In this document: positions 23,076-32,167 of the stretch, piece after piece
How the letters are laid out: each line of letters opens with the position of its first letter
How positions within the stretch are numbered: the stretch's first letter is position 1
From: Byssovorax sp.
GTDB taxonomy: Bacteria; Myxococcota_A; Polyangia; Polyangiales; Polyangiaceae
DNA length: 38,051 bases
NCBI GenBank assembly: GCA_025362495.1
Contig: JANYGI010000021.1
Span: 1-38,051, forward strand
Reading direction: 5' to 3'
The notes under the pieces: model-generated
Told to the model about the DNA's origin: nothing
The model's input: the letters and a program-made list of their open reading frames with translations, nothing else
The model's database searches: none
Made by a program: the position numbers and the translations under genes

Positions 23076-25499
23076 ATGATCTCTGCCGAAGAGCTCGAGC
23101 TCGTCGCCTCCGTCGAGCACCCCGATCCGCACCGTGTGCTCGGGCCGCACGCCGACGAAGAAGCGGGAGGCGTCACCGTTCGCGCGTTCCGCCCCGACGC
23201 GCAATCGATCGCGCTGCAGCTCGACGGCGGCGGGCCCGCGACGCCGATGCGGCGCATCCATCCGATCGGGATCTTCGAGGCGACGCTGCCCGGCGCGACG
23301 TCGCCGCTCCGCTACACGCTCGAGGTGCAAGGCGACCACGGGACGACGGTGGGGCGCGATGCGTACGCGTTCCCGCCGTCCCTCGGCGATCTCGATCTGC
23401 ACCTCGCGGCCGAGGGGACGCACCGCGAGCTCTACCGGCACCTCGGCTCCCACGTGCGCGAGGTCTCCGGCGTGAAGGGCACCGCGTTCGCCGTGTGGGC
23501 GCCGAGCGCGCGCCGCGTGAGCGTCTCGGGCGACTTCAACGGGTGGGACGGCCGGCTCCACGCCATGCGCCGGATGGGCCGCGGGATCTGGGAGATCTTC
23601 GTCCCCGACGTGGGCGAGGGCGCGCTCTACAAGTTCGAGGTCAAGACCATGCACGGCGTGCTGATCTTGAAGGCCGATCCTTACGGCCGCGCGATGGAGC
23701 TCCGGCCCAACACGGCGTCGAAGGTCGTCACCTCGCACTACACGTTCGACGACGCCGCGTGGATGGCCGCGCGCCGGGAGCCGCCGGTGTCGAAGCGGCC
23801 GATGGCGATCTACGAGGTGCACCTCGGCTCGTGGAAGATCCGGCCGAAGCCCACCGGCGAAACGAAGGGCGATCCGGCCGAGCGCTGGCTCTCGTACCGC
23901 GAGCTCGCGACGGCGCTCGTCGACTACGTGGCCGACCTCGGCTTCACCCACGTCGAGCTCTTGCCGGTGATGGAGCACCCGTTCGACGGCTCGTGGGGCT
24001 ACCAGGTGTCGGGCTACTTCGCGCCGACGAGCCGCTACGGATCACCCGACGATTTACGGTATTTCATCGATCGCTGTCACCAGCGCGGGCTCGGCGTGAT
24101 CCTCGACTGGACGCCGGCGCATTTCCCGAAAGACGCCTTCGCGCTCGGCCGCTTCGACGGGAGCGCGCTCTACGAGCACATGGATCCCCGCCAGGGCGAG
24201 CACAAGCAGTGGAACACCTACGTGTTCAACTACGGGCGCCCCGAGGTGAAGAACTTCCTGATCTCCAACGCGCTCTACTGGCTCGAGGAGTTCCATGTCG
24301 ACGGGCTCCGCGTCGACGCCGTGGCCTCGATGCTCTACCTCGACTACGGCGCGTCGAACGCGTGGGAGTGGGTGCCCAACAAGTTCGGTGGCCGCGAGAA
24401 CCTCGACGCCGTGGCCTTCCTGCGCGAGCTCTGCGACGCCGTGCACGAGCGCGTCCCGGGCGCCGTGCTCGCCGCGGAAGAGTCGACGTCGTGGCCCGGC
24501 GTCACGCGGGCCACGTACCTCGGCGGCCTCGGCTTCGACCTCAAGTGGAACATGGGGTGGATGCACGACACGCTCGCGTACTTCGGCTTCGATCCGATCC
24601 ATCGCAACTTCCACCACGGCAAGCTCACGTTCGGGCTGATGTACGCGTACTCGGAGCGCTTCCTGCTGCCGCTGTCGCACGACGAGGTCGTGCACCTGAA
24701 GAAGTCGCTGGTGTCGAAGATGCCCGGCGATCGCTGGAAGATGCACGCGACGCTGCGCTCGCTCTACGGGTACATGTGGGCCCACCCGGGGAAGAAATTG
24801 CTCTTCATGGGGGGCGAGATCGCGCAGTGGGGCGAGTGGAACTTCGAGAGCGAGCTCGAGTGGAGCCTGCTCGGCGAGGCCGATCACGCCGGGATGCAGC
24901 GCCTCGTGCGCGATCTCAACGCGCACTACAAGAAGTACGCGGCGCTCTACCAGCTCGACGACGAGCCCGCGGGCTTCCGCTGGATCGACGCCAACGACGC
25001 GCCCCAGAGCGTGGCCTCGTTCATCCGGTTCCCGGCGCAGCCGCGCCCGGCGCTGGCCTCCGTCGACGCGACGTCGCCGGCGCCGAGCGTCGCACCCGCG
25101 CCGCTCCCGCCGCGCGGGACGAAGGGCGTGCACGTGGTCTTCGTCGGCAACTTCACGCCGCTGCCGCGCCACGGCTACCGCGTCGGCGTGCCGCGGCGCT
25201 GTCGCTACGTGGAGGTGCTCAACACCGACGCGAAGGAGTACGGCGGGAGCGGCCTCGGTAACCTCGGATCGGCGGCGATCGAAGCCGTTCCGTCGCATGG
25301 ATTCGATCAATCGATCGTGCTGACGCTGCCGCCGCTCGGGGTGCTGTGGCTGGTGCCCGAGCTGCTGGAAGATCCCGACGGGATCGAAGACGAGGCGCCC
25401 GTGGCCGCGTTCGCGCTCGCGACACCGTCGACCGACGAGGAGCGCGTGGCCTCGACCGAGCGCAACACGGGTAGCGTCCCGCCGCGTCGGCGACGCTAG
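23076..25499 (+). CDS. glgB: 1,4-alpha-glucan branching enzyme
   Basis: 807-aa GH13 branching enzyme that makes alpha-1,6 branches in glycogen. In order: an N1 domain (HPDPHRVLGPH), a CBM48 domain (FAVWAPSARRVSVSGDFNGW), then the catalytic barrel with YEVHLGSWK, GFTHVELLPVMEHPFDGSWG, DGLRVDAVASMLYLDYG (nucleophile Asp414), AAEESTSWPGV (acid/base Glu468) and LSHDEVVH (Asp536). It is longer than the 730-aa E. coli enzyme. A Pro/Ala-rich insertion lies in the C-terminal domain (PAPSVAPAPLPPRG) and there is a charged tail of about 50 residues. The ATG at 23076 has GAGGA five bases upstream. No other glycogen gene is adjacent. Confidence 0.96.
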   Translation: MISAEELELVASVEHPDPHRVLGPHADEEAGGVTVRAFRPDAQSIALQLDGGGPATPMRRIHPIGIFEATLPGATSPLRYTLEVQGDHGTTVGRDAYAFPPSLGDLDLHLAAEGTHRELYRHLGSHVREVSGVKGTAFAVWAPSARRVSVSGDFNGWDGRLHAMRRMGRGIWEIFVPDVGEGALYKFEVKTMHGVLILKADPYGRAMELRPNTASKVVTSHYTFDDAAWMAARREPPVSKRPMAIYEVHLGSWKIRPKPTGETKGDPAERWLSYRELATALVDYVADLGFTHVELLPVMEHPFDGSWGYQVSGYFAPTSRYGSPDDLRYFIDRCHQRGLGVILDWTPAHFPKDAFALGRFDGSALYEHMDPRQGEHKQWNTYVFNYGRPEVKNFLISNALYWLEEFHVDGLRVDAVASMLYLDYGASNAWEWVPNKFGGRENLDAVAFLRELCDAVHERVPGAVLAAEESTSWPGVTRATYLGGLGFDLKWNMGWMHDTLAYFGFDPIHRNFHHGKLTFGLMYAYSERFLLPLSHDEVVHLKKSLVSKMPGDRWKMHATLRSLYGYMWAHPGKKLLFMGGEIAQWGEWNFESELEWSLLGEADHAGMQRLVRDLNAHYKKYAALYQLDDEPAGFRWIDANDAPQSVASFIRFPAQPRPALASVDATSPAPSVAPAPLPPRGTKGVHVVFVGNFTPLPRHGYRVGVPRRCRYVEVLNTDAKEYGGSGLGNLGSAAIEAVPSHGFDQSIVLTLPPLGVLWLVPELLEDPDGIEDEAPVAAFALATPSTDEERVASTERNTGSVPPRRRR

Positions 25500-25513
25500 C
25501 GGTTCGAGGTGCT

Positions 25514-26191
25514 TCAGGCCGCCGAGGGTGGCGGGGCCTTCTCGGCGGCCTCGGCGCGGCGACGGCGAAGCTCGGCGAGGGCGGCCGCGGGATCGGCGCC
25601 GACCGACGGCGACGGCGACGGCGGCGCCGCGGGCTGCGGGAGCCACATGTCGATGGTGGTGACGACGGCCATCCCGCCGAGCGTGAGCAGCATGGCGACG
25701 CCGGAGATGGGCATCAGGATCGCCATCCCCGCGCTGCCGCGGACGAGCCACGGCGCCGCGATGTGCAGCCCGGTCGTCGCCACGGCCGCGACGACGCCCG
25801 CGTGCTGGAGCCAGAGCGGGAGCTTCGCGAGCAGCCACAGGTGCGCGAGCACGAGGACGTAGATCGGGATCGTGAAGAGGTGAAAGTGCGTCACCTCGAG
25901 CAGCTTGCGCTCGGACATCTGGACGACGATCGCGCGCGGTTTTTCGGCCTCGGGGGCGAGATCGATCTGCGGCCCGCCCGTCGCCGGCTTCACGTCGAGC
26001 CTCGCGGGCGCGGCGACCTCGGCGCCGGCGTAGTAGGCCGCCGGCCCCGCGTCGCCGACCGCCGCGCCGTAGAGGCGCCACGAGACGAAGAGGCCGATCA
26101 CCGCCGCAATCGCGAACGCCGTGTAGAGCATCTTCGAGCCGAGCGAGACGGCCCGCAGGCGGCCCGGGACCGCCGCCTGGAACTCCCTCAC
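25514..26191 (-). CDS. His-rich 4-TM membrane protein coupled to FMN-binding protein
   Basis: 225-aa inner-membrane protein of no family I recognise. TM1 is at about 21-43, then an exported loop with PQIDLAPE (IDLAPE at 76-81), TM2 at about 102-121 (FHLFTIPIYVLVLAHLWLL), TM3 at about 130-149 and TM4 at about 157-180. The tail is Pro-rich then charged (PSPSPSVGA, ALAELRRRRAEA). Histidines 102, 104, 117, 130 and 143 lie in or near TM2-TM3, a pattern compatible with haem or metal binding. It starts with a GTG overlapping the stop of the FMN-binding gene (GTGA), so the two are coupled. Plausible role: membrane electron donor or anchor for the flavoprotein; this is inference. Confidence 0.7.
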   Translation of the reverse strand: MREFQAAVPGRLRAVSLGSKMLYTAFAIAAVIGLFVSWRLYGAAVGDAGPAAYYAGAEVAAPARLDVKPATGGPQIDLAPEAEKPRAIVVQMSERKLLEVTHFHLFTIPIYVLVLAHLWLLAKLPLWLQHAGVVAAVATTGLHIAAPWLVRGSAGMAILMPISGVAMLLTLGGMAVVTTIDMWLPQPAAPPSPSPSVGADPAAALAELRRRRAEAAEKAPPPSAA

Positions 26192-26763
26192 AGCGCGCCG
26201 CTCTTGAGCGCCGCGTCGAGCACCAGCGCGTCGCGCTTCACGCCAAGCGCGATCGATCGCGACGAGATGCTGGCGCCGCTGACGATGTCGATGTCCTTGC
26301 CCGCGGTGATGGCGTCCTTCGCCGTCTTGCCGGCGAACTGCTTGCGAAAGCGCGGGCTCCGGATCTCGTCGCCGTAAGCCTCGCGGTACTCCATGATCTC
26401 GACCCGCTGCACCGCGCCGCCTAGGTCGAACTGCACGGCGAAGTCGATGTCTTCGTGCAGGCCGCGCTCGCGGTCGAGGACGATGGCGTAGCCGTCGCGC
26501 TTGCCGTCGGTGTCGGCGATGTAGATGTGCCAGTCCTTCGCGACGCTGGGCGCGCCGAGCTTGGCCGCGATCGCCGTCGCGTCGGCGTCGGAGAGCGAGA
26601 AGGCCTTGTTGCCGACGTGCTTCGACGTCGCGAAGAAGCTGCCGAGCACCGAGCCCGAGGTCCAGTACTGCGCGGCGTACGCGGGCAGCGCCGCAGCGCC
26701 GGCAGCGAGCAGCACCGCGGCGGCGAGGATCCGGCTCGGCCGGTGCGTGAAGAGGGTGCTCAT
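26188..26763 (-). CDS. Periplasmic FMN-binding domain protein
   Basis: 191-aa exported protein. A signal peptide (about 1-30, ending LPAYA) is followed by an FMN-binding domain of the NqrC/RnfG type. The covalent-flavin motif appears as DIVSGASISS (159-168), with Ser165 at the position where Thr or Ser receives FMN from an ApbE-type transferase. Upstream DGYAIVLDRERGLHEDIDFA and VQRVEIMEYREAYGDEI fit the domain's strands. ApbE itself is not in the window. I chose ATG 26763; an ATG at 26811 would add 16 residues but overlaps the shared operator. It forms the first gene of a two-gene unit with the 4-TM protein (GTGA overlap). Confidence 0.85.
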   Translation of the reverse strand: MSTLFTHRPSRILAAAVLLAAGAAALPAYAAQYWTSGSVLGSFFATSKHVGNKAFSLSDADATAIAAKLGAPSVAKDWHIYIADTDGKRDGYAIVLDRERGLHEDIDFAVQFDLGGAVQRVEIMEYREAYGDEIRSPRFRKQFAGKTAKDAITAGKDIDIVSGASISSRSIALGVKRDALVLDAALKSGAL

Positions 26764-26791
26764 CGAAGAAGGTCGAGCGAACCTGTCATTG

Positions 26792-26811
26792 TTGAAAGTC
26801 AAAGTCAACAT
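26792..26811 (-). promoter_or_regulatory. Shared operator motif, copy A
   Basis: Plus-strand reading TTGAAA GTCAA AGTCAACAT, 28 bp before the FMN-binding gene start. It matches copies at 29571-29590 and 31407-31426 without gaps (TTGAAAnnnnnAGTCAAYAT). It is AT-rich in a very GC-rich region and carries inverted TTGA/TCAA half-sites. Confidence 0.65.
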
Positions 26812-26845
26812 GGGTCTCCGTTCGACGCAACGGCTGCGAAAGGCT

Positions 26846-28222
26846 TCAATCGCGGACGCGGATCTCCAGGAAATTTTCGGCTTTCTCGATCCATGCGGCG
26901 GGGTGCAGGCCGGCGAGGACGTGGTCGACGGCGGCCTCGGCGATGTCGGCGCAGTGGTCGAGGTTGACGTGGAGGAAGAGCGCCTGGCGCCCGATGGGGA
27001 CGATGTTGCCCATCGTTGCCACGCGGGCCATCGTCGCGCGCCACTCGGCCATCCACCCGCGCCGGTAGAGCGGATAGACGCTGGGGACGAAGCGCTGGCG
27101 GACCTCGATCGGCTTCAGGCCGCGCGGGACGATGCCGGCCCACGTGAGCTGCGCGAGGAGCGCCGCGAGGAGCTCGCCCTGTCCGAAGTCGCGACGCGGG
27201 CCCCACGCGCCCTCGGGGATCTCGACGCAGAGGATCGTCTCGCCCGGTGTGCGCAGCGCGGGCGAGTAGTTCTGGATCTCGGCGACGCGGCCGAACCAGT
27301 GCCGCGCGTCGGGCGAGTAGTACGTCTCGGCGGCGCCGACGCGCTCTACCGGGAGCGCGATGTACACGAGGTACAGGCCGCGATGCTCGAGCTTGGTGGG
27401 CACGAGATCGCGGAGATCGCCGGCGAAGAGCACCGGGCCGCGATCGCGATCGCCGGGCTCGAAGGCGCGGCTGCGCTCGATCGGGACGCCGGCGCGCGCG
27501 AGCTCGGCCTCGAGCCAGCCGATGATCGACGCGGCGCCGCGCTCCGGGTAGACGAACGAGCCCGAGGGGCCGTCGTCGCCCGGCTCGTCGTCGCCGGCGA
27601 TCCAGCGAGCGGCGCGGCCTGCGGCGCTGGCGATGAGGGCCCACGGCCGCGTGGTGCTGACGCGCTTCTTGGCGATCGTCTGCGAGAGCTCGTCGGCGTC
27701 GAGGCCCCAGACCTTCTCGGCGTAGGGGCGGTAGAACGCGTGGTAGGCGCGGTCGCCGACGCGATCGCGCACGAAGCGCTCGAACCCTTGATCGCCCGAG
27801 GTGACGGCGCGATCGGCGTCCCAGCCGACGAAGGCGCGGCGTCGCCCGGCGCGCGCGAGGAAGCCCGCGGCGGTGGAGAGGCTCGCCGGCAGGCCGATGG
27901 CGCGAGCGAGGGCGAGGGCGTTCGGCGGGTAGGGGACGCGGCGATCGCCGAGGAGCAGCACCCCGCGGCGCGGTCGCTGCAGGAACGGCGTCTGCGCGTG
28001 GATCTCGCGGAACAGGGGCCGATCGAGGGCAGCGGGGTGGAGGCGGTGCGATCCGAGATCGCAGGGGATCCCCCGGAACTCTTCGGCGCCCGCGAGACCG
28101 CCGAGGCGCGGAGCGCGCTCGATCACCCGAGCGCGTCGGCCCCGGCGCGCGAGGAGCAACGCCGCGTAGAGGCCGGAGAGCCCGCCGCCGACGATCAGCG
28201 TCTCGGTCGCTACGCCGCTCAA
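26846..28222 (-). CDS. FAD/NAD(P)-binding oxidoreductase (amine-oxidase-like)
   Basis: 458-aa flavoprotein of the NAD(P)-binding-8/amine-oxidase superfamily. The dinucleotide motif LIVGGGLSGLYAALLLARRG (start near residue 8) and the ERAPRLGG segment define the FAD fold. FRGIPCDLGSHRLHP and FYRPYAEKVWGLDADELSQT resemble protoporphyrinogen-oxidase and UDP-galactopyranose-mutase-like members. The C-terminal part ends with MGNIVPIGRQALFLHVNLDH, the usual second FAD contact region. I chose TTG 28222 as start: it overlaps the porin stop (TTGA) and lies eight residues before the Rossmann motif. This implies translational coupling with the porin. The substrate is unknown; a haem-precursor, lipid or sugar-nucleotide substrate is possible. 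Confidence 0.8.
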   Translation of the reverse strand: MSGVATETLIVGGGLSGLYAALLLARRGRRARVIERAPRLGGLAGAEEFRGIPCDLGSHRLHPAALDRPLFREIHAQTPFLQRPRRGVLLLGDRRVPYPPNALALARAIGLPASLSTAAGFLARAGRRRAFVGWDADRAVTSGDQGFERFVRDRVGDRAYHAFYRPYAEKVWGLDADELSQTIAKKRVSTTRPWALIASAAGRAARWIAGDDEPGDDGPSGSFVYPERGAASIIGWLEAELARAGVPIERSRAFEPGDRDRGPVLFAGDLRDLVPTKLEHRGLYLVYIALPVERVGAAETYYSPDARHWFGRVAEIQNYSPALRTPGETILCVEIPEGAWGPRRDFGQGELLAALLAQLTWAGIVPRGLKPIEVRQRFVPSVYPLYRRGWMAEWRATMARVATMGNIVPIGRQALFLHVNLDHCADIAEAAVDHVLAGLHPAAWIEKAENFLEIRVRD

Positions 28223-29547
28223 TACATGAACCCCAGGCCGAAATTGATCTGGCGCTCGTCGAGGCCGAGCTTGCGGTTGCGGAGCTGGTAATCGGCCTTG
28301 AACGCGATCTCGCGGATCGGCCGGTACGAGGCGCCGAACGTGTACTCGCGGACGCTCTTCGTGGGGTTGCGATCGAAGCCGTCGGGCACCGCCGACTGCG
28401 TGTCGTAGTACTCGAGCCGCGCGAACGGGACGAGCTGGTGCGAGACGCCGAGCGGTCGCAGCACGTCGTAGCCGCCTTCCACATAGGCGCCGCGCATCCG
28501 CGTGGGCACGGGGCTCGTCGCGTCGGGAAACAGGGCCGCGCCCGTGGCGTCGAAGGTGTGCATCAAGGCTTCGGATTGCGGCAAATGCCACTCGGCGAAG
28601 AGCGCCTTCCACTCGAGCCCGGCGCGGTGGAAGCGGGCGTCGAGCGTGTAGCCGAGGACCGGCACGCTGAGGCTCACGCGCGAGTGATCGCGGAGGTAGA
28701 AGTCGGAGTTGCCGCCGGCGTCACCCGCGTAGCCCGACGCGCCGATCACGAAGCCGAGGATGGGCTCGACCTCGGCGCGACCGACGACCGACCAGGCCTT
28801 GGCCGCGGCGAACGAGCCGCCCTGGCGACCGCCCGCGAGGCCGTCGGCGGAGAGGCCGCGCGGGTCGAGCCCCGTCATGCCGTAGAGCTCGTAGCGCAGG
28901 CCCTCGACGGGGCGGCCGAAGAAGCCCGCGCCGATCTCGCGCCACGTCGAGGGGATGACCACCGTGTCGAGGCGCGGGCGCACGACGCCGTTGAACGTGG
29001 GCGGCTCGTGCACCGTGTTGATGATGCCCATCGGCACGAGGACGAGCCCCGCGCGCAGGCCGAGCGCGTCGCCGAAGAGCTTCCAGTCGAGGTAGGCCTG
29101 CTCGAGCTCGAACGCGCCGCTGCAGGTCGAGCAGGAGAGCGAGTGCTCGATCTCGAGCTCGGTGTAGACGCGGATGCGGCTCGTGAACGAGTGCGCGACG
29201 AAGACGACGAGGCGCGCGACGTCGGCCGACCAGCGCGTCTCACCGTCGCGACCGGAGGCGAGGCCGCGGATCAGGACCTCGCCGTAGCCGCCGATCGAGG
29301 TGTTCGAGGCGCTGCCCTCGGCCGCGTGAAAGCGCTGCTCGGTGAGGCCACGCACGAGGTCCACGTCGGGCGCGCGACCCGCGCCGAGCGCGATCGGCGG
29401 CTGCTTCGGCGGAGGAGGGGCCGCGTGCTCGGGGGCGAGGTCGATGGTCGGCCCGGCCGGCGCAGCGGTGTCCGCCGCGCTCTCCGCGGCGAAGCAAGCG
29501 AGGATGAGCGCGACAGCGGCAGCCGGGAGAAAGCGCAAACACGGCAT
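28219..29547 (-). CDS. Outer-membrane porin-like beta-barrel protein
   Basis: 442-aa exported protein. A signal peptide (about 1-25) is followed by a disordered Pro-rich segment containing PTIDLAPE (IDLAPE at 35-40), then alternating strands to the C-terminal aromatic end INFGLGFMY, typical of outer-membrane barrels. Segments such as RIRVYTELEIEHS, FELEQAYLDWKLFGDALGLR, and RAGLVLVPMGIINTVHEPPT followed by FNG resemble phosphate-selective porin O/P-like (OprO/P) proteins. There is one CSTC pair in an early strand loop. The ATG at 29547 lies 23 bp after the shared operator. The FAD oxidoreductase gene follows with a 4-bp overlap. The substrate is unknown. Confidence 0.72.
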   Translation of the reverse strand: MPCLRFLPAAAVALILACFAAESAADTAAPAGPTIDLAPEHAAPPPPKQPPIALGAGRAPDVDLVRGLTEQRFHAAEGSASNTSIGGYGEVLIRGLASGRDGETRWSADVARLVVFVAHSFTSRIRVYTELEIEHSLSCSTCSGAFELEQAYLDWKLFGDALGLRAGLVLVPMGIINTVHEPPTFNGVVRPRLDTVVIPSTWREIGAGFFGRPVEGLRYELYGMTGLDPRGLSADGLAGGRQGGSFAAAKAWSVVGRAEVEPILGFVIGASGYAGDAGGNSDFYLRDHSRVSLSVPVLGYTLDARFHRAGLEWKALFAEWHLPQSEALMHTFDATGAALFPDATSPVPTRMRGAYVEGGYDVLRPLGVSHQLVPFARLEYYDTQSAVPDGFDRNPTKSVREYTFGASYRPIREIAFKADYQLRNRKLGLDERQINFGLGFMY

Positions 29548-29570
29548 GGACGGGAGGTGTTTTCGCCGTA

Positions 29571-29590
29571 TTGAAAACGTTAGTCAATAT
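29571..29590 (-). promoter_or_regulatory. Shared operator motif, copy B
   Basis: TTGAAA ACGTT AGTCAATAT on the plus strand, 23 bp before the porin start. It is followed by CAATTTCAAC to 29600, so TTGAAA/TTTCAA form a larger palindrome and the minus strand shows three tandem hexamers (TTGAAA, TTGATA, TTGACT). This is the strongest of the three copies. Confidence 0.7.
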
Positions 29591-29637
29591 CAATTTCAAC
29601 GACGAGGCGTCTTCACGAATTCGATAGACTTTGTCAC

Positions 29638-31083
29638 CTATTTGTCGGGTCTTTTTTGCGTGATGTCCCAGAGTGCGAGATCGCTCCAGAGGGAGTCGAC
29701 GTAGCGCGAGCGGGGTCGGGCGAAGATCGGGCGCGCCTCGAGGCCGTGCTCGGCGAGCTGGCGCAGGAGCGCCGGCGAGAGCGCCTCGCCGGTGATCCAC
29801 GCGGCGCGAGGAGGTGAATCCGCGAGCGTCGGCGCGGGCAGAACGCGGCGTCCCGGGGCGCCCTCGGCGAGCAGCGGCCCGAGATCGAGGGTGATGATCG
29901 GCGTGTGATCGCTGGCGGCCGCGACGAAGGCGACGAGCGCCGCGGCAGGCGAGGGGACGCGGTGCGCGGCGACGAGCGCGGCGCCGTCGGTGATCCACTG
30001 CGCGGCGAGCAGCGCGACGACGGCGATCCCGCCGCGGAAGCGGGCCGCGAGGGCCTCGGCGCCGGCCGCGAGCGCGACGATCAGGATCGGCGCGAGCGGG
30101 ACCCAGTGGCGCGGCTTGTACGCGGTGTTCTGCCCGAGCGTCGCCCAGACGAAGTACGCGAGGGCGCCGACGACGAGCTCGGGTTGCCGTCGCAGCGCGG
30201 GCAGCGAGGCTCGCCGCGCCGCGACGACGAGGAGGATCGCCAGGAGCGGAGCGCCGAGCCAGCGCGCGGGCGGCGCGTCGATCCAGGCCCCGCCGAGGAC
30301 GTTGGCCCACAGGCCCCAGACGACGCCGTGCAGTCGATCGACGGGCGAGGTGACCGTGAGCGCGGAGCCGCCCCACCGCGTGAAATGACCGGTGCCCTGG
30401 CCGAGCGCGGCGATCACCAGCGGCCGCGCTCCCGCGACGATCACCAGCGGGACGAGCCACGGCACCACGCCCACGACGAGGTCGCGCGCGCGGGTGAGGT
30501 ACGCGCCGTGGCCGCCCTCGGCGCGCGCGACGACGACCGTCGCGACGATCGCGAACGGGAAATACGAGAGGCGCACGCCGAGGCCGACGCCGAGCGCGAG
30601 CAACGCCGAGGTGCGCAGCGACGCGGCGCGAGCGGGCAGGCGGCGCGCGCGCGCGAGGAGCCACAGCGCGAGCGCGATGCCGGCGGCGCCGGGCACGTCG
30701 CTGAGGAGCTTCTCCGACGAGAGCCACAGGAACGGCGAGGCGAGCGCGAGCGCTCCAGCGATCCACGCGGCGCGGCGGCCGAGCACCTCGAACGCGAGCA
30801 GCGCCGTGAGCACGACGAGCGCGGCGCCAGCGGCCGCCGAGACGATCGCGAGCGCCAGGTGAGCCGACGCGCCGAGCGCCGCGACAAGCTTCGCCGCGCC
30901 GATGTACACCGGATAAAATGGCGCGTGCGGGCGCAGCGAGGCGATGTCGAAGCGGTCGACGGCTAGGCGAAAGCGGAGCGCGTCGAGGTCCTCGTCGTGG
31001 TCGATGCGGTACGCGAGGCGAAGCGCGAGCGCGACGAGCCCGAGCGCCAGCAGGCCGGCGCGATCGCGGCGCGCGGGGCTCAC
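29638..31083 (-). CDS. Polytopic GT-C (PMT/ArnT-like) glycosyltransferase
   Basis: 481-aa inner-membrane protein with about ten hydrophobic helices and the layout of GT-C glycosyltransferases (PMT/GT39/ArnT-like), which use polyprenyl-phosphate sugars. The first exported loop holds the expected acidic pair (RIDHDEDLDALRFRLAV) followed by HAPFYPVYIGAAKLVAALGA. LWLSSEKLLSDVPGAAGIAL gives the typical second acidic site. The C-terminal 100 residues are a soluble periplasmic-type part (HTPIITLDLGPLL, then YVDSLWSDLALWDITQKRPD). It starts with GTG 31083, ten bases after the stop of a small secreted protein gene, so the two form a unit. The acceptor is unknown; the small secreted protein or a surface glycan are candidates. 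Confidence 0.72.
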   Translation of the reverse strand: MSPARRDRAGLLALGLVALALRLAYRIDHDEDLDALRFRLAVDRFDIASLRPHAPFYPVYIGAAKLVAALGASAHLALAIVSAAAGAALVVLTALLAFEVLGRRAAWIAGALALASPFLWLSSEKLLSDVPGAAGIALALWLLARARRLPARAASLRTSALLALGVGLGVRLSYFPFAIVATVVVARAEGGHGAYLTRARDLVVGVVPWLVPLVIVAGARPLVIAALGQGTGHFTRWGGSALTVTSPVDRLHGVVWGLWANVLGGAWIDAPPARWLGAPLLAILLVVAARRASLPALRRQPELVVGALAYFVWATLGQNTAYKPRHWVPLAPILIVALAAGAEALAARFRGGIAVVALLAAQWITDGAALVAAHRVPSPAAALVAFVAAASDHTPIITLDLGPLLAEGAPGRRVLPAPTLADSPPRAAWITGEALSPALLRQLAEHGLEARPIFARPRSRYVDSLWSDLALWDITQKRPDK

Positions 31084-31093
31084 GAGCGGCGCG

Positions 31094-31387
31094 CTACGGG
31101 GCCGCCGACCCGGAGCCGCTGCCCGCCTCGGGGACGCCAGGCGCCGTCGTCCCGCAATCGAGCGTGGTCGCGGGGGCCGGCGCGCCGTTGCCGACGCCGG
31201 AGCCGGCCTTGTTCGCGCCGTCGCCGTTGCCGGACGTGCCCGACGACGGCGTCGCCGCGCAGGTGCCGAAGCTCTCGCCGGCGTAGTCGAGGCACGCGCC
31301 GCCGAGGGCCGGGGCGACGAAGCCGAGCCCCGCGGCGGCGATCACGGTGCGGGCCAGGGCCCAGGGCGAGCGCGAAGCGGGGTTCAT
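31094..31387 (-). CDS. Small secreted Gly/Ser-rich protein
   Basis: 97-aa protein with a signal peptide (ARTVIAAAGLGFVAPALGG, about 12-30), two Cys spaced by ten residues (CLDYAGESFGTC) and one later Cys. A low-complexity, probably disordered tail is rich in Gly, Ser, Ala and Asn. The abundance of Ser/Thr in the tail would suit O-glycosylation, and the gene directly precedes a GT-C glycosyltransferase; this link is inference. The ATG at 31387 lies 19 bp downstream of the third operator copy. A much longer open frame upstream on this strand is antisense to two plus-strand genes and is not believed. I recognise no family. Confidence 0.6.
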   Translation of the reverse strand: MNPASRSPWALARTVIAAAGLGFVAPALGGACLDYAGESFGTCAATPSSGTSGNGDGANKAGSGVGNGAPAPATTLDCGTTAPGVPEAGSGSGSAAP

Positions 31388-31406
31388 CGCCCGCCACAAT
31401 GCCTTG

Positions 31407-31426
31407 TTGAAAACACAAGTCAATAT
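31407..31426 (-). promoter_or_regulatory. Shared operator motif, copy C
   Basis: TTGAAA ACACA AGTCAATAT on the plus strand, 19 bp before the small secreted protein start. It is identical to copy B at 16 of 20 positions and is followed by CAG rather than CAA. It lies in a 174-bp divergent region shared with the SUKH gene. Confidence 0.65.
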
Positions 31427-31561
31427 CAGATGGCGGGCCGGGTCACGGTTCACCGCAGAACCCCGCGCTTTCGCGTCCGCGGCTTCGGTTTGCCTACATT
31501 GTCGCCCCGATCCGCTGCTCGTTTTTTGCGTTGACGCCGGCGCAGAGCCTAGTTTCCGCCC

Positions 31562-32167
31562 ATGTCCGTCGCCTCTTGCCTCGCCGAAATCCGCGCGCTC
31601 AAGCTCGACCTCGCGCGCCTCGATCCGCGCGCCGGGATGCCGGTGCTGCCGCCCCCCGGGGCGACGCCGGCCGCCTTCCTCGCGGTGGAGCGCAAGCTCG
31701 GGCGCGCGCTGCCTGCGGCGTACCGCGAGCTCCTCGAGCTGCACGATGGATTCCCCCAGCTCTACCAGGGCGCGAGCCTGCTCTCGACCTCGCAGCTCGT
31801 ACGTGGCTCGTTCGTCGACGTCGCGCGGATGATGATCGATCTCGGTGAGCCCGGGCCCATCGGCGCTTCCCGGCGCCGCCCCGCGCTGGTGCCGTTCGGC
31901 ATCGACAGCACCGCCGAGACGATCTTCGCGTTCGACTGCGGAGCGCCCACCGGCGAGCCCGGCATCCTGCTGTGGATGAACGAGATCGGCGTGCGCCTCG
32001 ACGGGTTCGCCGCGTTCCTCGATTTCGTCATCGAGATGCTGCAGGCCGACGTCGAGGAGCGCCGCCGGTTCTTCGAGCCGGGGCTGCAGCGCCGCGTCGC
32101 CGATCCGTGGGGGATGGCGCTCGGACGCAGCCGCGCCGGTCACGCTCCCGGCGCGCACGCGGCGTAG
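31562..32167 (+). CDS. SMI1/KNR4 (SUKH) family protein
   Basis: 201-aa cytoplasmic protein with the SUKH-1 fold: PAAFLAVERKLGRALPAAYR, then ELLELHDGF, matches the defining N-terminal motif, followed by PALVPFGIDSTAETIFAFDC and GILLWMNEIGVRLDGFAAFL. SUKH proteins often act as immunity proteins to polymorphic toxins but many are regulatory or orphan. No toxin domain is visible within several kilobases. The ATG at 31562 begins MSVASCLAEIRAL. The gene opens a probable plus-strand operon with a Pro-rich protein (60 bp downstream) and a kinase. Confidence 0.82.
   Translation: MSVASCLAEIRALKLDLARLDPRAGMPVLPPPGATPAAFLAVERKLGRALPAAYRELLELHDGFPQLYQGASLLSTSQLVRGSFVDVARMMIDLGEPGPIGASRRRPALVPFGIDSTAETIFAFDCGAPTGEPGILLWMNEIGVRLDGFAAFLDFVIEMLQADVEERRRFFEPGLQRRVADPWGMALGRSRAGHAPGAHAA

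Follow-up and report, generated by a model that had tools for sequence, protein, structure and literature searches.

Predicted Fur boxes before the three units of a putative iron-reduction module in a Byssovorax contig

The closest described counterpart of the element studied here is the delta-proteobacterial Fur regulon, whose operator is the 17-bp box WTGAAAATNATTTTCAW (Rodionov 2004, PMC545781); in the parts of that paper drawn on here, the core of the regulon consists of feoAB and fur. For the genes concerned, the nearest systems are the PepSY, MsrQ and DUF4405 flavinylation systems (PMC8238504, PMC10979944), which, in the parts of the two papers drawn on here, combine an extracytosolic flavinylated subunit with a membrane electron carrier bearing conserved histidines, and PepSY-like clusters are reported there as Fur-repressed in Shewanella and Caulobacter. 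Here we analyzed a stretch of 38,051 nt from Byssovorax sp. (assembly GCA_025362495.1, contig JANYGI010000021.1, positions 1 to 38,051; the window), in which a 20-bp motif precedes each of three two-gene units. On sequence evidence, the three-copy motif is predicted to be a Fur operator, with a probability of roughly 0.87.

Motif copies and matches to published Fur sites

The motif TTGAAANNNNNAGTCAAYAT was found three times in the window (copies A, B and C; Table 1), on the + strand and with 0 mismatches; the genes that it flanks lie on the minus strand, and in their orientation it reads ATRTTGACTNNNNNTTTCAA. When up to three mismatches were allowed, copies A, B and C were still the only ones in the window, compared with a mean of 0.05 and a maximum of 1 in 100 dinucleotide shuffles. 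The distance from the motif to the start codon was 28 nt for copy A (FMN_bind gene), 23 nt for copy B (porin-like gene) and 19 nt for copy C (small gene). Over about 60 bp surrounding each site, the GC content was 46–56%, compared to 70.1% for the window. These results bore out the first-pass annotation, made from the sequence alone, which had described three ungapped copies in the same orientation, 19–28 bp before the first start codons of two-gene units and AT-rich against a background of about 70% GC. The two-gene units also hold by coordinates, with overlaps of 4 bp between the FMN_bind and TM225 genes and, if the FAD gene starts at the TTG at 28222, between the porin-like and FAD genes, and a gap of 10 bp between the small gene and the glycosyltransferase (GT) gene. 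With a dispersed repeat in mind, the flanks of the three copies were compared on inspection and were unlike each other.

As earlier matrices had been trained partly on the window copies, which made the ranks of A, B and C circular, we used instead a symmetric matrix built from 33 published delta-proteobacterial Fur sites (Table 3, PMC545781), of which the window copies form no part. The scan took in 405,128 positions, made up of the window and 20 other stretches from this genome, and was run with a reversed control. The four best positions in the window were those of copy A, copy B (two positions) and copy C, and 200 Markov resamplings of the window gave a mean of 0.125 sites with at least 14.0 bits, compared with the 4 observed. 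The second TTTCAA arm that the annotation had noticed at copy B scored as a box of its own, overlapping the first (B2 in Table 1). Across the 405 kb, the best intragenic match reached 16.5 bits and the best reversed-control match 16.4 bits. The other high intergenic match (23.7 bits; C121:19124) was upstream of an imelysin gene (PF09375; EfeO-like, below cut-off).

In the whole 10.84-Mb assembly there were 3 exact copies of the motif, 0 with one mismatch and 4 with two, and the reversed pattern gave 0. One of the two-mismatch sites (C112:3924) sits 22 nt upstream of a Bfd ferredoxin gene, which is followed after 213 nt by the bacterioferritin gene bfr (TIGR00754 above cut-off). This bfd site, over which open reading frame (ORF) picking had called an antisense frame, scored 18.5 bits with the published matrix in the 405-kb scan. 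Both the bfd and the imelysin sites were outside the training set of a later window-trained matrix. Further, when the genome was searched for strict Fur palindromes, 19 matches were obtained, including copy B and the imelysin site, compared with 3 in the control. With one mismatch allowed, TTGAMWNNNNNKTTCAA matched 43 times in the genome, compared with 9 times for the reversed control; 4 matches were exact, namely the three window copies and the bfd site, the last of which is circular because the K in the pattern was chosen so as to include it. Among the matches having a locus (22 loci, L135–L156), no clear new target beyond the imelysin gene was found.

Considering iron uptake, the FTR1 permease family was picked before its upstream region was seen. 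The single FTR1 match in the genome is a cytochrome c-FTR1 fusion whose start codon is covered by a 21.3-bit box (L238:289–305, G000 C58), and a promoter-like TTGATT/TAGGAT pair was seen by eye upstream of the box. The statement that the window motif has no further copy thus stands for the strict consensus, whereas a two-mismatch site occurs before bfd and degenerate boxes occur before the imelysin and FTR1 genes. The annotation had also proposed a dedicated repressor, and this found no support, as boxes of this kind also precede bfd, FTR1 and imelysin genes and so mark a wider iron regulon, and as no Fur-family gene lies on the contig of the window.

Three Fur-family matches were found in the genome, on C62, C118 and C126. 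The C62 protein matched PF01475 with 122.9 bits and fitted Fur models (98.6–107.3 bits) better than PerR (72.9 bits), with all of these below the NCBIfam cut-offs; the C126 protein fitted PerR models best, with 97.6 bits, also below the NCBIfam cut-off; and the C118 protein is an atypical member. PerR and Fur boxes can be alike, and it may be asked whether the PerR-like C126 or the atypical C118 protein owns the sites, with peroxide or another metal as the signal. We consider this unlikely, since the other targets of the box are genes for iron storage and uptake, and since the palindrome upstream of the PerR-like gene itself, ATTAGAAAGTTTCTCAG, differs from the motif and scored 9.6 bits with the Fur matrix. 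Delta-proteobacterial PerR sites, as given in the parts of PMC545781 drawn on here, are also unlike the Fur consensus. The palindrome ATTAGAAAGTTTCTCAG, at L127:9575–9591 (G000 C126) just upstream of the PerR-like gene and unlike the Fur box, is a possible PerR box. On another contig (L047; G138 C330), a Fur-family gene is preceded by a box, and the 20-bp motif recurs without mismatch about 0.5 kb beyond the gene.

The TTGA and TCAA arms, together with a module that looks redox-active, could also suggest a redox regulator of the CRP/FNR type. An FNR site reads TTGAT-N4-ATCAA. The arms of the motif are spaced as TTGA-N9-TCAA and its co-targets are iron genes, which makes such a regulator highly improbable; the spacing also differs from that of the TTGAC-N4-GTCAA-like HcpR sites (TTGA-N6-TCAA) in the parts of PMC545781 drawn on here.

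Boxes before orthologous genes in relatives

A search of genome_contigs with an alignment of the TM225 protein yielded 272 relatives, including Minicystis rosea, Sorangium cellulosum, many metagenome-assembled genomes (MAGs) of Myxococcota/delta lineages, and Nitrospirota; the locus counts below were drawn from 80 of the 272. G133 has the gene order of the window, small-GT-porin-FAD-FMN-TM, and so does G143 for the part that its contig covers, with identities of 55–66% for the five larger proteins and 42% for the small protein. Other families of the order retain porin-FMN-TM or FMN-TM.

A strong box was defined by 17.9 bits, the 99% level of the published-matrix scores in 398 upstream regions that served as controls. 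This level is strict if anything, because the top match of the control is a FeoB gene that shares its intergenic region with an FMN gene (L174). In evaluable Myxococcota/delta loci, a box at this level was present at the FMN gene in 40/44 and at the porin-like gene in 12/21, and at the downstream TM gene in 0/47. The 40 FMN boxes represent 36 distinct site-plus-peptide pairs, several loci being from closely related MAGs, and some contigs of this set are also among L039–L058, so that the two sets are not independent. The FMN genes below the level were those of L165, L171, L205 (10.2 bits) and L218, the last with a 30.1-bit box near the contig start. Four Sorangium-type porin sites were likewise below the level (11.3–16.2 bits), yet at the same place, 71–72 nt before the start. 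In G123, an exact copy of the motif was found upstream of a Bfd-like gene. For these counts, the Nitrospirota group includes one Nitrospinae locus, and L215, from Planctomycetota, is in neither group. In Nitrospirota, TTAATAATCGTTCTCAA (17.3 bits) was among the three best sites in 19 of the 34 loci L203–L236, and in Nitrospira defluvii (L219) this sequence separates the divergently oriented apbE and porin-like genes, with a bacterioferritin gene downstream. The search of the genome and of relatives that the annotation had suggested found boxes before iron genes and orthologues, and its guess of a Fur-like regulator gained strong support from the published matrix, from boxes of this kind at iron genes elsewhere in the genome and from the conservation before orthologues.

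The position of these boxes bears on whether the motif is a promoter element, such as an extended −35 region or a site for an extracytoplasmic function sigma factor, and no operator. All three window copies have one orientation, with TTGACT at a fixed place and 19–28 nt to the start codons, as a promoter element might. However, among the 40 boxed FMN loci, 24 had a box that overlapped or abutted the rule-picked start codon, with protein N-termini of the type MKIVFN, MKSVFN and MKGVFN. In some of them a TTGAC-like and a TATA-like element were seen by eye upstream of the box, so that Fur would bind on the downstream side of the promoter. A promoter element is impossible where the box, as in many relatives and at FTR1, lies over the start codon and downstream of such a pair; moreover, the sites in relatives are palindromic and are picked up by a matrix of published Fur sites. 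A promoter element is therefore very unlikely as the sole explanation, and no promoter or terminator pattern shared by the three units was found. Translation of the FMN_bind gene from the ATG in box A (a 207-aa ORF) was considered and rejected for this lineage, since in Sorangium So0008-312 (L161) a stop codon between the box and the ATG places the start of translation downstream.

Several results weigh against the assignment to Fur or narrow it. Copy C, with 14.0 bits, fell below both the reversed-control maximum of 16.4 bits and one intragenic site of 16.5 bits in the 405-kb scan, so that copies A and B stand clear and copy C alone does not, despite its exact 20-bp motif; further, the place of copy C in four Sorangium loci scored 1.8, 0.9, 8.7 and 9.4 bits and is not conserved. 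In Nitrospirota loci, a box right at the gene was present for the porin gene in 1/26, the FMN gene in 1/29 and the TM gene in 0/31. In the Byssovorax genome, the 14 TonB-receptor matches had no intergenic box nearby among the best 25 matches, some stretches ending at contig ends, and apbE had no box with the published matrix. Whereas feoAB and fur form the core of the delta-proteobacterial regulon in the parts of PMC545781 drawn on here, FeoB_C was absent from this genome in a family search and fur had no box among the matches of the 405-kb scan. A sigma-70 scan of 25450–31600 also gave no promoter-like match.

Weighing these points, we regard copies A and B as very likely Fur operators and copy C as a probable one. 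The FMN-TM and porin-FAD units are likely under Fur control, as boxes recur before their orthologues, and the same control is less certain for the small-GT unit. The claim that one regulator controls all six genes is accordingly likely for four of them and less certain for the small and GT genes. As a whole, regulation by Fur appears well supported.

Genes of the units and a possible ferric reductase

The six genes and the predicted boxes are collected in Table 1.

Table 1. Predicted Fur boxes and genes of the three units (positions in the window)
Feature	Position	Strand	Evidence
Fur box A (predicted), before the FMN_bind-TM unit	26792..26808 (20-bp motif to 26811)	-	24.4 bits, best in window; box at FMN orthologue in 40/44 loci
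Fur box B1 (predicted), before the porin-FAD unit	29571..29587 (20-bp motif to 29590)	-	20.8 bits; box at porin-like orthologue in 12/21 loci
Fur box B2 (predicted), second box overlapping copy B	29583..29599	-	21.9 bits
Fur box C (predicted, weakest), before the small-GT unit	31407..31423 (20-bp motif to 31426)	-	14.0 bits, rank 4 in window
FMN_bind (RnfG-like) protein, signal peptide, DxxSGAS flavinylation-type motif	26188..26763	-	PF04205 E 8.3e-9
TM225 membrane protein, four long helices, conserved His	25514..26191	-	no Pfam/NCBIfam family; pLDDT 89.2
Porin-like outer-membrane barrel	28219..29547	-	weak: BBP2 E 0.027, below cut-off
FAD-dependent amine-oxidase / PRK07208-like protein	26846..28222	-	PF01593 E 1.4e-12, NAD_binding_8 E 2e-14
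Small exported protein	31094..31387	-	no family
PMT-like glycosyltransferase (GT)	29638..31083	-	PF13231 E 3.2e-4, below cut-off

The FMN_bind domain scored 36.4 bits against a cut-off of 22. The flavinylation motif, which we take to have the form Dxx[S/T]GA[S/T], appears in this protein as DIVSGAS, and a strict motif of this type was present in 12/14 aligned FMN_bind proteins. The genome has one ApbE (C118:95836–96690, E 2.6e-84). For TM225, the structure model has four long helices with a predicted local distance difference test (pLDDT) score of 89.2. Its histidines H102, H104 and H117 are present in 49/49 members and H143 in 38/49, where the search patterns themselves contained H102, H104 or H143. 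No match to PepSY, PF01794 or DUF4405 was found in the 49 members at E 0.01, and one member had a weak PF01292 cytochrome b561 match (E 0.0048). An orthologue of the porin-like protein matched Porin_O_P (E 0.0018, below cut-off). In L172, the FMN and porin-like genes flank a GT of this type, which is preceded by a 31.6-bit box; this supports the GT as an occasional member of the module.

A SUKH-1 (SMI1/KNR4) gene (31562–32167) is divergent from the small-GT unit, with a similar gene at the same place in three Sorangium loci (L040, L159 and L161), and GlgB (23076–25499) adjoins the TM gene, with a GlgB-like ORF on the same side in Minicystis rosea (L157).

From family, context and regulation, we give about even odds that the module is a Fur-repressed periplasmic ferric reductase. 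In iron-replete cells, Fe(II)-Fur, most likely the C62 Fur-type protein, would occupy the boxes and repress the three units; under iron shortage, Fur would be released and the units expressed. Read in gene orientation, the TTGACT half of the motif probably also serves as the −35 region in the lineage of the window (judged by eye, with no match in the promoter scan), which would account for the fixed orientation and the asymmetry of the motif. The porin-like barrel would let ferric iron through the outer membrane, TM225 would pass electrons to the FMN_bind protein, and the latter, supplied with flavin mononucleotide (FMN) by ApbE, would reduce ferric iron in the periplasm; ferrous iron might then enter by other carriers, for example, the Fur-boxed FTR1 permease. 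In this scheme, we infer Fur binding, the direction of regulation, flavinylation, the use of heme or quinone by TM225, and iron as the substrate.

An alternative with a substantial chance, somewhat short of even, is that the operator is a Fur operator and the module is no ferric reductase: the FMN and TM proteins may feed another periplasmic reductase, or the flavin adenine dinucleotide (FAD)-dependent, GT and small proteins may make an iron-controlled envelope sugar or pigment. Iron reduction is proven for none of the gene products, no role in iron metabolism is obvious for the FAD protein or the GT, and FMN_bind proteins serve many electron routes in the parts of PMC8238504 and PMC10979944 drawn on here. 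Also against a reductase role, TM225 resembled no known cytochrome in PDB searches, which gave generic helical bundles only and decide nothing on the fold, and Foldseek with the TM225 model gave no match at E 0.001. What speaks for iron reduction is the Fur box together with FeoB, ApbE and bacterioferritin neighbors in relatives; flavinylation clusters with membrane cytochromes have, in the same parts of those two papers, already been tied to iron assimilation or reduction.

If the module is a ferric reductase, it might explain the supply of ferrous iron in bacteria without FeoB, and an unnamed gene cluster would become a testable iron system in Polyangia. TM225 would offer a new membrane partner without a Pfam family for flavinylated proteins, the genes bfd, FTR1, imelysin and this module provide a Fur-box reference for Polyangia, and the start-codon boxes place regulatory and coding sequence on the same bases. 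More tentatively, the module could represent a distinct, unnamed class of flavin-based ferric reductase, which joins FMN_bind, a new four-helix His-rich carrier and a porin-like channel under Fur repression across Myxococcota and Nitrospirota; in many lineages the Fur operator would take in the start codon of the flavoprotein gene and the codons right after it (N-termini MKxVFN), with repressor site and signal-peptide start evolving as one sequence. No description of the module was found in the literature, a weak negative, as it covers open-access papers only.

Comparison with known systems

The window boxes share the 17-bp form of the delta-proteobacterial Fur box and are found by its site matrix; the window copies differ in having TTGACT, not TTGAAA, in one arm. 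In the parts of PMC545781 drawn on here, overlapping Fur boxes of Desulfovibrio, shifted by 6 bp, resemble copies A and B, and Fur-boxed hypothetical porins ('psp', weakly like PF07396) of Geobacter metallireducens and Desulfuromonas may be compared with the porin-like gene of the window. The EfeUOB/FTR1 uptake system is represented in the same genome by the boxed FTR1 permease gene and the boxed EfeO-like imelysin gene, but these lie elsewhere in the genome, and the FTR1 protein carries a fused cytochrome c domain. With the PepSY/MsrQ/DUF4405 systems, the module shares the pairing of an extracytosolic flavoprotein with a His-bearing membrane protein and, in some relatives, a nearby ApbE gene, as in the parts of the two papers drawn on here. 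It differs from them in TM225, which matched none of those families (49 members, E 0.01), and in the porin-like gene, which is a regular partner here, whereas the word 'porin' is absent from the main texts of PMC8238504 and PMC10979944. The predicted operator is of a known kind, and the module appears to extend flavin-based iron reduction by a new variant.

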